In this document: piece after piece, positions 6,993 to 50,305 of the stretch
Numbering within the stretch: position 1 is the first letter of the stretch
Layout: each line of letters starts with the position of its first letter
NCBI RefSeq assembly: GCF_000971175.1
Contig: NZ_BBLY01000005.1
Coordinates: 248,001-312,000, forward strand
DNA length: 64,000 bases
Reading direction: 5' to 3'
Source: Demequina pelophila
GTDB taxonomy: Bacteria; Actinomycetota; Actinomycetes; Actinomycetales; Demequinaceae
Translations under genes and position numbers: made by a program
The notes under the pieces: model-generated
What the model saw: only the letters and a program-made list of their open reading frames with translations
Database searches by the model: none
Told to the model about the DNA's origin: nothing

Positions 6993-7949
6993 GTGAACGA
7001 GGCACGTCGATCCGACGAGGGCACCCCGTACGTCACCCTCACCCGCGACGAGTGGGCCGCGCTGGCGGACGCGACGCCGCTCCCCCTCACCGAGGAGGAC
7101 ATCGCGAAGGTCCGCGGCCTCGGAGACCCGGTGGACCTCGCCGAGGTGGACCGCATCTACCGCCCGCTGTCGCGCCTGCTCGACCTGTACTCGGGCGCGA
7201 CCGGACAGCTCCACCGCGCGACGAGCGAGTTCCTGGGCGAGCGCGCGTCGCGCACGCCGTTCATCATCGGCGTCGCCGGCTCCGTGGCCGTCGGCAAGTC
7301 CACCACCGCGCGCCTGCTGCGCGAGCTCATGGCCCGCTGGCCCAGCTCCCCCCACGTCGAACTGGTGACCACGGACGGGTTCCTCCACCCCAACGCGGTG
7401 CTCGAGGAGCGGGGCCTCATGGCCCGCAAGGGCTTCCCCGAGTCGTACGACCGGCGCGCGCTGCGCGAGTTCGTGCTCCAGGTGAAGTCCGGCGCCGAGG
7501 AGGTCCGGGCGCCCGTGTACTCGCACCAGGTCTACGACATCGTGCCCGACGAGCAGGTGGTCGTGCGCCAGCCGGACATCCTCATCGTCGAGGGTCTCAA
7601 CGTCCTGCAGACCACCGCGGGCCGCGAACCCGGCAGCCAGCAGCTGCACATCTCCGACTTCTTCGACGTCTCCATCTACGTCGACGCCCGGCAGGCGGAC
7701 ATCCGCCGGTGGTACATCGACCGCTTCCTCGCACTGCGGTCCACGGCCTTCGCGCGCGACGACTCGTACTTCCGCTCCTACTCGACCCTGACGGACGATC
7801 AGGCCACGGCGGTCGCCGCCCAGATCTGGGACGCCGTCAACGCGCCCAACCTCGCGACCAACATCGCACCGACGCGCGGGCGCGCCACCATCATCCTCAC
7901 CAAGGGCGCCCGCCACACGATCGAGTCGGTGCGGCTGCGCAAGCTCTGA
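6993..7949 (+). CDS. coaA: Type I pantothenate kinase
   Basis: Phosphorylates pantothenate, the first step of CoA synthesis. With the GTG start at 6993 the protein has 318 residues, close to the family norm. The P-loop [17 protein letters not shown] is at about residues 93-109, TTDGFLHPN and the segment from RKGFPESYD follow, and IVEGLNVL is the Walker B-like strand. GTG is preferred over the in-frame ATG at 6975 because CACAAT (6981-6986) ends six bases before it, giving a leaderless start. The ATG overlaps a copy of the dispersed word GGGGACGATGC. Divergent from glmS. Confidence 0.92.
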
Positions 7950-7958
7950 GCGGGCGGG

Positions 7959-8711
7959 TCACTCCGCCTCGGCGGCGTCCCCGCCCGCGCGCCGCTCGCG
8001 ACGCGTGGGCTTGGGCTGGAGCTCGCCCCGCGCGATGCGCTCCTCGATCTGGTCGGCGAGGTCCGGGAGCTCGGGCTCGCCGAACCCCATGTGCTGGAGG
8101 ATCTTGTCGACGAGCATGCCCAGCAGCACGCCGCCGGTGATGCCCACCGCGATGGACACGAGCAGGTTCTCGAAGATGGACCCGGCCCAGATGCCGAGAG
8201 CGGTCCCGTACGTGGCCCAGATGATGACGGCCACGCCGTCGACGATCATGAACCACTGGCGCGGGTAGCGCAGCGCCCCGGCCGTGAGGTTGACCGCGAC
8301 GCGGCCCATGGGGATGAAGCGGGCCGCGATGATGAACGCCGTGCCGCGCCGCTCGAGCGTCGTCTCCGCCCAGTCGAGGGTCTTGCGCACCCGGGCGCGC
8401 GCGAAGAAGGGGTGCCGCCGCACGTCGAAGCGGGAGCCCACCCAGTAGGCGAGCTGGTCGCCGCACCAGGCGCCGGCGGCGGCGAAGATGAACGTCAGCC
8501 ACACCCACGGGGTCCCGGTCTGGGCCCACGCGGTCGCCGAGGCGATGACCACGGACTCGCTGGGGACCAGCGGGAAGATGCCGTCGATGAGCGACAGCAG
8601 AAAGATCCCGGGGTAGATCCAGAACGACTCGGTGAGGGTGAGGATCCACCCCTCGAGCGCATCGATCCAGTCGAAGAGGAGGTGCCAGAGGTCGTTCAGG
8701 GCGCCGTTCAC
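7959..8711 (-). CDS. DedA-family membrane protein, copy 1
   Basis: DedA/SNARE-associated (VTT domain) integral membrane protein of 250 residues; the family includes undecaprenyl-phosphate and phospholipid flippases. Motifs are FPLVPSESVVIAS, GAWCGDQLAYWVGSRF and FIIAARFIPMGRVAVNLTAGALRYP (the re-entrant loop arginine/proline region), with at least five hydrophobic segments and a basic/acidic cytoplasmic tail. The GTG start gives NGALNDLWHLLF. It is about 60-65% identical by eye to the neighbour at 8802-9569 over the membrane core, so the two are a tandem duplication. A perfect palindrome lies 35 bases upstream. Confidence 0.9.
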   Translation of the reverse strand: MNGALNDLWHLLFDWIDALEGWILTLTESFWIYPGIFLLSLIDGIFPLVPSESVVIASATAWAQTGTPWVWLTFIFAAAGAWCGDQLAYWVGSRFDVRRHPFFARARVRKTLDWAETTLERRGTAFIIAARFIPMGRVAVNLTAGALRYPRQWFMIVDGVAVIIWATYGTALGIWAGSIFENLLVSIAVGITGGVLLGMLVDKILQHMGFGEPELPDLADQIEERIARGELQPKPTRRERRAGGDAAEAE

Positions 8712-8745
8712 ACGCCCCAGTCTCTCAGGCGCGACCGGGGACCGC

Positions 8746-8765
8746 GATGGGGGAGGTCCCCCATC
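8746..8765. promoter_or_regulatory. Perfect palindrome upstream of DedA copy 1
   Basis: Inverted repeat with 9-bp arms GATGGGGGA / TCCCCCATC around GG, 35 bases before the GTG start. The next stretch toward the gene contains CTGAGAGACTGGGG twenty bases past the palindrome; DedA copy 2 has CTGAGACACTGGG at the same spacing. That shared geometry suggests an operator/promoter rather than a terminator, although it also lies just past the stop of copy 2. Confidence 0.6.
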
Positions 8766-8801
8766 CGGCGCCGACGGGCGTCGGCCGCCACGCGCGCGGC
8801 C

Positions 8802-9569
8802 TCAGCGGGACGGACGCGCCGCGCCCTCCAGCACCGCGCTGCCGTCCCCGCCACGACCCCCGGAGGCCACGCCCGCGGGCTCCCGCGCATCGTCCCCCGC
8901 AACGGGCAGGTCACCCGCTGCGTCGAGCGCCGGCTCCCCGAAGCCCAGGCGGTGCAGCACCTTGTCGGTCACCAGCCCCAGCAGCACTCCGCCCAGCGCA
9001 CCGACGCCGATCGACACGACCACGTGGTCGAACAGCGACCCGGCGCCGACGCCGAGGACGGTCCAGTACCCGGCCCAGATCGCCGTGGCCACCGCGTCGA
9101 TGATCATGAATCGGCGCGTCGGGTAGCGCAAGGCCCCGGCCATCGCGCTCACGGCGAGCCGCCCCATGGGGATGAAGCGGGCCGCGATGATGAACGCCGT
9201 GCCACGGCGCTCGAGCTGGGACTCCGCCCACACGAGGCTGCGCGCGACGCGCTCGCGCGCGAAGAACGGGTGACGGCGCACGTCGAGGCGCGCGCCGGCG
9301 AGGTAGATCAGCATGTCGCCGCACCACGCGCCGAACGCCGCGAGCAGGCAGATGAGCCACACCCATGGGGTACCCGTCTGCGCCCACGCCGTCGCGGTCG
9401 CGATCACCACCGACTCGCTGGGGACCACCGGGAAGAAGCCGTCGATCGCCGCGACCGCCCAGACGCCGGGGTAGATCCACCACGACTCGGTGAGCGAGAG
9501 GATCCACGCCTCGAAGGCGTCGATCCCGCCGAAGACGATGTGCCAGAGGTCGTTGAGCGCTTCGGTCAC
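8802..9569 (-). CDS. DedA-family membrane protein, copy 2
   Basis: Second DedA/VTT-domain protein (255 residues), collinear with copy 1: N-terminal ALNDLWHIVFGGIDAFEAWIL, FPVVPSESVVIATATAWAQTG, GAWCGDMLIYLAGARLDVRRHPFFAR, FIIAARFIPMGRLAVSAMAGALRYP. The main difference is the C-terminal tail, which here is an unrelated low-complexity segment and contains a copy of the dispersed word (GCATCGTCCCCC at 8887) within its coding sequence. GTG start. Its own imperfect palindrome lies upstream. Which lipid either copy moves is not known. Confidence 0.9.
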   Translation of the reverse strand: MTEALNDLWHIVFGGIDAFEAWILSLTESWWIYPGVWAVAAIDGFFPVVPSESVVIATATAWAQTGTPWVWLICLLAAFGAWCGDMLIYLAGARLDVRRHPFFARERVARSLVWAESQLERRGTAFIIAARFIPMGRLAVSAMAGALRYPTRRFMIIDAVATAIWAGYWTVLGVGAGSLFDHVVVSIGVGALGGVLLGLVTDKVLHRLGFGEPALDAAGDLPVAGDDAREPAGVASGGRGGDGSAVLEGAARPSR

Positions 9570-9602
9570 GTGCCCAGTGTCTCAGCCGGGCGCGGCCGGC
9601 GA

Positions 9603-9622
9603 CATGGGGAAGGTCCCCCATC
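9603..9622. promoter_or_regulatory. Palindrome upstream of DedA copy 2
   Basis: Imperfect inverted repeat ATGGGGA-AGG-TCCCCCAT, 34 bases before the GTG start, the counterpart of the perfect palindrome before copy 1. In both cases exactly 20 bases separate the palindrome from the CTGAGAnACTGGG stretch. Confidence 0.55.
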
Positions 9623-9664
9623 GGGACCGGACACCACGGATGGGTTCCGGACGGAGGAACCCGC

Positions 9665-11026
9665 TCAGAGGCTCAGGCGCTCCCGGACCACGTCCGCGAG
9701 GACGTCGGCGTGGTGCTGGGCGTCCGCGGCCGTGGCGGCCTCGACCATCACGCGCACGAGCGGCTCCGTGCCGGACGGGCGCAGCAGCACCCGGCCGTCG
9801 TCGCCGAGAGTCTTCCGCGTCGCCGCGACCGCCTCCTGCAGCACCGGGTCGGAGTGGACGCGGGTGCGGTCGGCGTTCTTCACGTTGACCAGCACCTGCG
9901 GCAGGATCTCGATGTCCTTGCACTGCTCACGCAGGGGTCCGGACGTCGCGACCCGCGCGGCCACGAGCAGCGCGGTGAGGATGCCGTCGCCCGTGGTCGC
10001 GTGCTCGGACACGATGACGTGGCCCGACTGCTCGCCGCCCAGGGAGAAGCCGCCCTCGCGCATCGCCTCGAGCACGTAGCGGTCTCCCACGGACGCCTCG
10101 ACGATGTCGATGCCGGCGCGGCGCATGGCCTGGTGCAGGCCCAGGTTGCTCATCACGGTGGCGACCAAGGTGGAACGGTAGAGCGAGCCCGCGTCGTTCA
10201 TGGCGATCGCCAGCAGGCCCATGATCAGGTCGCCGTTCACCACGGCGCCGGTGTGGTCGACGGCCAGGCAGCGGTCGGCGTCGCCGTCGAGGGCGACGCC
10301 CAGGTCCGCGCCGTGCTCGATGACGGCGGTCTGCAGCCCGCTCAGGTGAGTCGAGCCCACCCCGTCGTTGATGTTGAGCCCGTCGGGGGACGCGTTGATC
10401 ACGGTCACGCGGGCGCCGGCGCGCTCGAGCGCGACCGGACCCACCGCGGACGCGGCGCCGTGCGCGGCGTCGACCACCAGGTGGACGCCGTCGAGCGGCG
10501 CCTCGGTGCCGGCGAAGGAGCGCACGGCGTCGACCACGTGGGTCACGTAGCGCTCGGCGAGCTCCGGTGAGGGGACGATGCGCCCCACGGCCGCGCCGGT
10601 GGGACGCTCCCACGGCTCGGCGAGACGGCCCTCGATGGCGGCCTCGACGGCGTCGTCGAGCTTGTGGCCACCGCGGGCGAAGAACTTGATGCCGTTGTCC
10701 GGCATGGGGTTGTGCGACGCCGAGATGACGACGCCCAGGTCCGCCCCGGTCGCTCCCGTGAGGAAGGCGACCGCGGGGGTGGGGACCACGCCCGCGTCGA
10801 GCACGTCGACGCCGGCAGACGCGAGACCGGCCGCGACAGCCGCGCCCAGGAACTCGCCTGAGACGCGGGTGTCGCGGCCGATGACGGCACGGGGCCGGTG
10901 CCCGGTGAACTCGCCCCGCTCCCCCAGGACGTGAGCCGCGGCGACCGCAAGGTCGACCGCCAGCTCCGCCGTGAGGTCGCGGTTGGCGAGGCCCCGGACA
11001 CCGTCCGTGCCGAAGAGTCGCGCCAT
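9665..11026 (-). CDS. glmM: Phosphoglucosamine mutase
   Basis: Converts glucosamine-6-phosphate to glucosamine-1-phosphate on the way to UDP-GlcNAc. 453 residues, starting [15 protein letters not shown]. The active-site phosphoserine is S104 in [16 protein letters not shown]; the metal loop DGDADRC and the phosphate-binding [12 protein letters not shown] near the C-terminus are intact. It follows rpsI by eight bases, so it is probably the last gene of rplM-rpsI-glmM, a common actinobacterial arrangement. Confidence 0.96.
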
Positions 11027-49456: not shown

Positions 49457-50305
49457 CTACCGACGGGCGATCGGCGCTCGAGGATTCGCTCGGAGGATAG
49501 CCGCGATCTCCGCCGCGATCTCGCCCGGTCGAGCGGACTGGATCTCCGCCGCCGTGAAGCGGGCGGTCAGATAGCTGCCCCGCAGACTCGTGCGGTCGCG
49601 TCGACGGTCCCGGCTAAACGCGTCATCGCCGTCGTGATAGGCGCGCCCGTCGGTCTCGACGACGAGCCTGCCTTCCACCAGAAGATCGACGCGCCCCACA
49701 CCGTCCAGGTACACCTGAGGCACCGCCCTGATGCCGGCCTCGACAAGGTCCAGCCGAGCAAGGGTCTCCTGCGCGGATTCGGCACGCGGATCCGCGTGGG
49801 CAAGCAGCCATGCGCGTCGATCGCGCCGGGTCGCCGACCACTGCACGAGGTCGCCACCCTTCAGCCGGCCGGCCCTCAGTGCGGCGTCGACCATGACCAG
49901 GTGCGCGCGGGCGTCGACGCAGAGGCCCGCGTGGTCGAGTGCGATCGGCACGGGCATTGGTGCGAGCGACCGCCCGCACTGGCTCGAGTAGTGGGTCCTC
50001 ACTCCCCCGTCAGTCTGGGGAGCGCGGCTCCGCGATCCGACCGCCAGGTGGAGTTGACGCGGGCGGGAGAGCACGGGCAGGCCGGCTTCGGCGATTCGGG
50101 AGACGCAGGTGAGGCGGGCCCGCAGCCGCGCGGCCTCCGCACGCGGTGCGGAGAGAGACGGCAGCGCGAGCACGCCCCGCGCGGGCACGACGAGCAGCCC
50201 AGTGCGGAGCGCGGCCTCGACCGCGTGCCGCGTCGCTCCGCGGGAGAGCACCTCCACTCGGCGCGCTACGCCGCCGCGCGACGCCACCAGCTTCACCGGG
50301 TCCAC
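49457..50305 (-). CDS. DUF559-type (Vsr/PD-(D/E)xK-fold) protein with AbiEi-like N-terminus
   Basis: 282 residues, GTG start without a clear ribosome-binding site. The N-terminal ~60 (GGVARRVEVLSRGATRHAVE, GLLVVPARGVLALP) resembles the winged-helix found in AbiEi-type antitoxins and DUF559 proteins. The C-terminal domain has YLDGVGRVDLLVEGRLVVET followed by DGRAYH, the D-x(n)-E-x-D core of PD-(D/E)xK nucleases, then FTAAEIQSARPGEIAAEIAAILR. Actinobacteria carry many such genes singly near repeats and tRNA genes; their role is unproven. No partner gene is seen. Confidence 0.72.
   Translation of the reverse strand: MDPVKLVASRGGVARRVEVLSRGATRHAVEAALRTGLLVVPARGVLALPSLSAPRAEAARLRARLTCVSRIAEAGLPVLSRPRQLHLAVGSRSRAPQTDGGVRTHYSSQCGRSLAPMPVPIALDHAGLCVDARAHLVMVDAALRAGRLKGGDLVQWSATRRDRRAWLLAHADPRAESAQETLARLDLVEAGIRAVPQVYLDGVGRVDLLVEGRLVVETDGRAYHDGDDAFSRDRRRDRTSLRGSYLTARFTAAEIQSARPGEIAAEIAAILRANPRAPIARR

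Follow-up and report, generated by a model that had tools for sequence, protein, structure and literature searches.

A palindrome shared by dedA and pspC/two-component promoters points to predicted envelope-stress control of DedA-family proteins in Demequina

Among the described systems closest to the one presented here, EsrISR of Corynebacterium glutamicum (CgtSR7, Cg0707/Cg0709) is, according to the covered part of PMC9960051, active in cell-wall stress such as that imposed by bacitracin, and its kinase Cg0707 is described in an excerpt of PMC3353115 as carrying PspC, transmembrane and ATPase parts in that order. For the lactococcal regulator CesR, the accessible section of PMC4447274 gives the binding site TCAGHCTnnAGDCTGA, and for Streptomyces coelicolor the covered text of PMC9739842 assigns membrane-protein targets to MacR of the MacRS system and presents AbrB1/B2 as the VraRS/LiaRS homologue. 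DedA-type proteins have been linked to the return of undecaprenyl phosphate only recently, as stated in the available portion of PMC9876793, with a link between DedA and carrier return also appearing in the title of PMC12893004; how cells adjust these proteins is little described in the literature that we covered.

Here we analysed a window of 64,000 nucleotides from Demequina pelophila (contig NZ_BBLY01000005.1, positions 248,001 to 312,000; the genome, G000, comprises 2.68 Mb in 11 contigs), in which two dedA genes stand in tandem on the minus strand, flanked by glmM and by a convergent gene that we take to encode pantothenate kinase (Table 1). The preliminary description of this locus as a pair of adjacent, GTG-started DedA paralogues was borne out, as the products of dedA1 and dedA2 match the DedA family PF09335 (VTT domain) with 58.7 and 58.4 bits, respectively, above the gathering cut-off of 33.9, and are identical at 147 of 220 aligned residues (67%). 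The best NCBIfam match for both proteins was the UptA model NF052604, at 36.4 and 40.3 bits; these scores lie far under the equivalog cut-off of 250, so that we infer the substrate here, and we regard the dedA product as a probable undecaprenyl-phosphate flippase.

Table 1. Features of the tandem dedA locus, in window coordinates
Feature	Position	Strand	Description
dedA1	8802..9569	-	DedA-family protein, 255 aa, GTG start; diverged extra copy
dedA2	7959..8711	-	DedA-family protein, 250 aa, GTG start; counterpart of the relatives' single dedA
glmM	9665..11026	-	Upstream of dedA1; TIGR01455 at 532.4 bits (cut-off 447.55)
dedA2 box, ATGGGGGACCTCCCCCAT	8747..8764	-	Predicted response-regulator site; perfect dyad, 7-bp arms, 4-bp spacer
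dedA1 box, ATGGGGGACCTTCCCCAT	9604..9621	-	Predicted response-regulator site; one pair imperfect
dedA2 extended -10, CTGA-GAGACT	8719..8728	-	Hexamer 22 bp past the 18-mer box; 7 bp ahead of GTG
dedA1 extended -10, CTGA-GACACT	9576..9585	-	Hexamer 22 bp past the 18-mer box; 6 bp ahead of GTG

Adjacent close dedA copies were found in D. pelophila only, among 37 Demequina genomes. Tandem dedA pairs also occur outside the genus, with two dedA matches separated by no more than about 1 kb in G041, G066, G123, G175, G189, G202 and G215 (f6) and in G077 (f3), and L042, one of the dedA upstream regions from such tandem-pair genomes, contained no forward match to the box described below. The dedA2 protein is 70-80% identical to its counterparts at 11 Demequina loci, and in a phylogenetic tree dedA1 forms a long branch placed just outside dedA2 and these 11 relatives, with support of 89/89. 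The alternative topology, in which dedA1 and dedA2 are sisters, yielded a p-AU of 0.418, such that a recent duplication followed by fast change and an older duplication followed by losses both stand. Both D. pelophila boxes have ATGGGGGACCT in common, while most relatives carry ATCAGG arms, which suggests that the promoter was either duplicated together with the gene or has been kept alike since.

The intervals given in the preliminary description were recovered on measurement: the boxes end 35 (dedA2) and 34 (dedA1) bases ahead of the GTG, and in both copies 20 bases separate the 14-bp GGGGGA core of the palindrome from CTGAGA. The second motif of that description, CTGAGAnACTGGG, does not belong to the operator; it coincides with an extended -10 element that is also found at genes devoid of the palindrome. 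Across Demequina, the dedA promoter has a common layout in which an ATCAGGG...CCCCAT-type dyad is followed after about 22 bp by CTG-nn-AGACT and, 6-7 bases further on, by GTG, with the CTG, the following A and the ACT invariant in all 27 aligned promoters. Of 29 promoters, 26 have a gap of 22 bp between box and hexamer, two have 23 bp and one has 21 bp, and the extended -10 (TGn + nAnnnT) is followed by the start codon after 6 bases in 21 of the 29 and after 7 bases in another 7. The one remaining promoter, counted as 5, belongs to dedA2, in which the in-frame GTG lies at 7 but is preceded by an out-of-frame GTG. No sigma-70 -35/-10 pair was called at the dedA promoters. We read the extended -10 as placed for transcription from the GTG itself, i.e. 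as a putative leaderless-type promoter, and with the start site presumed on this basis the centre of the box would lie about 43 bases upstream, over the -35 region.

The same CTGnnAGACT-N6/7-GTG arrangement was observed, in the absence of the box, at several other, apparently leaderless genes (L120-L125), indicating that the -10 part is a general promoter element and that the palindrome is the specific one. These genes had come up as partial matches, confined to the end of the model, to R1, a model of the dedA promoters that uses sequence only and was run on 41 genomes of the genus; having the extended -10 without the box, they were set aside as targets and classed as leaderless-type genes.

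Palindromes of this general kind are not rare in the window, where a loose search allowing up to two mismatches returned 7 matches against 7.7 expected by chance, whereas with no more than one mismatch only the two dedA boxes were found; searched exactly, the 14-bp core has a single location in the whole 2.68-Mb genome. Although the loose matches are at the chance level, conservation speaks against a chance palindrome: the pair stands above chance because the box precedes dedA at a matching position in 29 of the 37 Demequina genomes, D. pelophila included. In most relatives it takes a mispaired ATCAGGG...CCCCAT form. In all of the 8 genomes that have no box at dedA (L014, L016, L031, L032, L034-L037), the end of glmM reaches or overlaps the dedA start. 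Judging from this pattern of conservation, we hold that the box at dedA is under selection.

Two features of the surrounding sequence deserve mention. Many species (for example L003-L008, L017, L018 and L020) have an additional conserved segment, TCATCC..GCGGCG or GCATCGGCC..GGATGAGC, ahead of the dedA box, a feature unexplained by our model. At four of the box-less loci (L016, L031, L032 and L034), CAGACTG is still present in the last codons of glmM, ahead of the dedA start, with AGA as an arginine codon, perhaps reflecting a -10 element retained within the coding sequence.

In addition to the dedA promoters, R1 gave repeated weak matches 42-51 kb away, in D. pelophila at G000:C7:214458-214493 with an E value of 0.54. 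This second box locus lies between a histidine kinase/response regulator gene pair and a divergent gene for a PspC-domain protein, outside the window; the regulator gene is about 42 kb from dedA (G000:C7). Domain matches of 68.7 bits to Response_reg and 63.7 bits to GerE identify the candidate regulator as LuxR/NarL-type, with 35.0 bits to HATPase_c for the adjacent kinase and 42.6 bits for the divergent PspC protein. The solved structures related to the regulator by sequence are headed by NarL, DevR and VraR, and also include 4wsz/4wt0, which we take to be LiaR; the NCBIfam model of the MadR family, NF047785, scored 154.7 bits, under its equivalog cut-off of 300. By Pfam, the PspC protein has no LiaF-like domain, and no PspC domain was detected in the D. 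pelophila kinase or in that of the sister genus; one was present in the single kinase tested from another family (L227).

The pspC gene occurs in 43 of 44 Demequina genomes and is preceded in all 43 by a (A)TCAGGG...CC(T/C)(C/G/A)AT box, although the invariance of the TCAGGG letters is partly a matter of choice, as these sites were selected by an expression demanding a TCAGGG-like start. The arms differ between the two kinds of promoter, with ATGGGGG at dedA in D. pelophila and ATCAGGG...CCTCAT at pspC. A second, direct TCAGGG half site is found just ahead of the pspC dyad in nearly all 43 genomes and is absent at dedA. The one genome of the 44 that has no pspC (G013, a single case, and a draft of 94% completeness) is also devoid of the kinase (no match, compared to matches in 11 of 11 other genomes tested), of any match to the degenerate pattern or the pspC-based model R2 described below, and of the dedA box.

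To what extent the two kinds of box share one specificity can be judged from a matrix built only from pspC sites (28 distinct 22-mers, of which the first 18 positions were used). In 30 of 30 dedA upstream regions of the box class, including the two of the window, the best forward match of this matrix was the dedA palindrome, while in the 8 box-less dedA regions no comparable match was found, the best scoring -3.5. With the threshold set to 1 in 10,000 positions, the matrix recovered 30 of 30 regions, as compared to a mean of 0.56 and a maximum of 4 for 200 column-shuffled matrices. The dedA2 box scored 10.2 forward and 11.7 reverse and the dedA1 box 6.1 and 6.4, with position-wise forward p values of 1.6e-5 and 3.9e-5, respectively, against a background of 127,458 window positions. 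The dedA boxes are not distinguished by matrix score alone, as other sites in the window rank above them: two score 9.2 and 8.6, exceeding the dedA1 box, and one, ATCAGGGCGGTGCCTCAG at 49715-49732 on the minus strand, reaches 15.7, exceeding both. The latter falls within a 282-aa coding frame (49457-50305, minus strand) and was rejected as a promoter site.

A strict model derived from the pspC sites alone (R2) returned the pspC site as its sole match in the whole D. pelophila genome, missing the dedA boxes of the window, and recovered dedA boxes in 3 of the 41 genomes only (G007, G036 and G061). A degenerate pattern, ATSRGGGNNNNNCCYSAT, composed after both kinds of site had been seen, matched three places only in the D. 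pelophila genome, namely the promoters of pspC, dedA2 and dedA1, with no match for the reversed control. Over the 41 genomes the pattern gave 164 strand-wise matches compared to 5 for its reverse, a number that overstates the count of places since both strands of a dyad contribute to it.

We extended the analysis to 18 genomes outside Demequina, one from a second genus of the family and 17 from three other families, which were those behind the best dedA loci, plus G048. The kinase was present in all 18, and in all 18 the best box of the kinase locus lay upstream of the kinase, scoring at least 10 bits in 17 and 2.7 bits in L226; a PspC-like translation was found behind this box in 14. Using a matrix built from 16 of these kinase-locus boxes, we detected forward matches with p of 1e-4 or better (relative to the Demequina window as background, with about 300 positions scanned per strand) in 8 of 16 other-family dedA regions (L210, L213-L217, L219 and L222), and a match on the reverse strand only in a ninth (L209). 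In 7 of these 9 regions (not L213 or L219) a TAnnnT follows 21-23 bp past the box, and at L040 of G048 the box is present with TAGCGT 23 bp later. No box was found in the other 7 of the 16 dedA regions, nor in that of the sister genus (L206). The DNA-binding region of the regulator is nearly identical across the 22 loci that were read, 5 from Demequina and 17 from elsewhere. Within it, the 5 Demequina loci (including L126, 3714-4364) read GKVLHKL and the 17 others SAVLRKL or SSVLRKL, with much the same box in both groups.

Within Demequina, boxes also precede several other kinds of gene, each in single species or small groups (L177-L192 and L194). They were found before genes for TM2 proteins (L117-L119, L183), PadR (L177, L191), ABC ATPases (L180, L184, L186, L187, L189 and L190; divergent in L194), a DUF4870 protein (L178) and a DUF6518 protein (L188), with the assignments confirmed by Pfam for one protein of each kind and two for ABC. 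A transporter-like protein (L185) and a membrane protein (L182) that are likewise preceded by a box had no Pfam match. The distribution suggests a candidate regulon whose membership changes around a fixed core.

A conserved box, in near-fixed spacing to the -10 element at dedA, is shared by the dedA promoters and the kinase/pspC promoter. Together with the three-place pattern in the genome, this argues for the palindrome being an operator, as the preliminary description had supposed. The response regulator encoded next to the box, by its domains, its solved relatives and the presence of the box in the divergent promoter of its own locus, would be the natural candidate binder. We propose that the palindrome is the site of this NarL/LuxR-family regulator, which would belong to an EsrISR/LiaFSR-type system of a kinase and a divergent pspC gene. 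In this model, disturbance of the membrane or of the lipid II cycle would free the kinase from PspC-type control, and a phosphorylated regulator dimer, bound to the box near -43, would recruit RNA polymerase to the extended -10 in a class II-like manner. The resulting rise in DedA would return more undecaprenyl phosphate to the inner face of the membrane, and since dedA was presumably copied along with its promoter in this lineage, the two genes would respond to one common signal. We put the probability that an envelope-stress response regulator binds both palindromes and activates dedA at about three in four, with regulator binding, its activating effect, the inducing signal, the transcription starts and the transported substrate all being predictions from sequence. 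For a wider version, we incline only slightly towards acceptance: that an EsrISR-like system directly controls DedA across several families within the order through a TCAGGG...CCCC(A/G)AT-type box 21-23 bp before the -10, as feedback on the carrier cycle, the target having been duplicated together with its operator in D. pelophila to yield two co-regulated, diverging flippases.

The same box and regulator could instead mediate repression, with the protein bound near -43 keeping dedA low until stress alters its state. An extended -10 promoter may work without an activator, and a protein sitting over the -35 region could block polymerase. Moreover, the covered part of PMC9960051 reports that EsrR represses nlpC. 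The near-fixed spacing of box and -10, seen also at 21-23 bp in several other-family dedA regions, fits an activator that contacts polymerase and would be needless for a repressor, and no -35 match was called, such that we judge repression unlikely. Somewhat less probable still, in our estimate, is that another factor reads the box and controls both dedA and the pspC/kinase locus; many DNA-binding proteins use dyads, and the regulator was picked by its neighbourhood, but the divergent promoter between kinase and pspC has the box in all 43 Demequina genomes with pspC and in 18 of 18 others, a situation that resembles autoregulated two-component systems, and box and kinase are jointly missing in G013.

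That the palindromes are instead RNA hairpins acting as terminators or attenuators of glmM and dedA1 we consider very improbable and have set aside: they lie 43 and 37 bases past the upstream stop codons and the dedA2 copy folds well (-22.5 kcal/mol, z -3.1; dedA1 less so, -14.6, z -1.5), but the only terminator-like site (GC stem and T-run) in 7900-9800 is at 8605-8625, at neither palindrome, Rfam gave no match for them at gathering cut-offs, most relatives have the mispaired form, the same box precedes unrelated genes, and its placement is fixed relative to the start that follows. This speaks against the outcome that the preliminary description had named as contrary to an operator, namely that the palindrome serves only as a terminator at the 3' end of the preceding gene.

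If activation by the PspC-linked regulator is correct, recycling of the undecaprenyl-phosphate carrier would be tied to an envelope-stress alarm, and a block in the cycle would raise the very protein that refills it. The box, common to the PspC/kinase/regulator locus and to dedA in several actinobacterial families, supplies a candidate regulator together with its predicted site and an expected induction by bacitracin- or amphomycin-type drugs, and also points to further candidate regulon members among TM2, DUF4870 and DUF6518 proteins of unknown function. In the titles and abstract beginnings that our literature search covered, which did not include the primary EsrISR paper (Kleine et al. 2017), we found neither a dedA gene under a PspC/LiaR-type regulator in actinobacteria nor a description of the box itself. 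With the EsrR site and target list of that paper outside the comparison, novelty is provisional: the type of regulator system is already known, and the box and the membership of dedA appear, for now, to be new.

Compared with the UptA/DedA translocases, both proteins share the VTT/DedA domain and have the UptA models as their best NCBIfam match, but at scores far from equivalog level, and here they form a tandem pair in which each copy has its own box. The Firmicutes systems LiaFSR, VraSR and CesSR resemble the present one in their NarL/LuxR-type regulators, with VraR and LiaR chains among the solved relatives, and differ in that the PspC protein here is not LiaF-like by Pfam. As far as the covered description of the CesR site goes, it is like our box a dyad with TCAG outer arms, and differs in its inner arms and spacer, the box here being ATCAGGG/CCCCAT with a 4-bp spacer. 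MacRS and AbrB1/B2, in what was covered of them, are LuxR/NarL-type systems, as is our candidate regulator; the MacR site is reportedly TGAGTACnnGTACTCA. The closest likeness in composition is to EsrISR, with a PspC-domain protein, a kinase and a LuxR-type regulator and, in another family, a kinase (L227) whose parts are ordered as in the partial account of Cg0707. The kinases of Demequina and of the sister genus differ in having no PspC domain of their own, and we therefore describe the system as EsrISR-like rather than file it as EsrISR.
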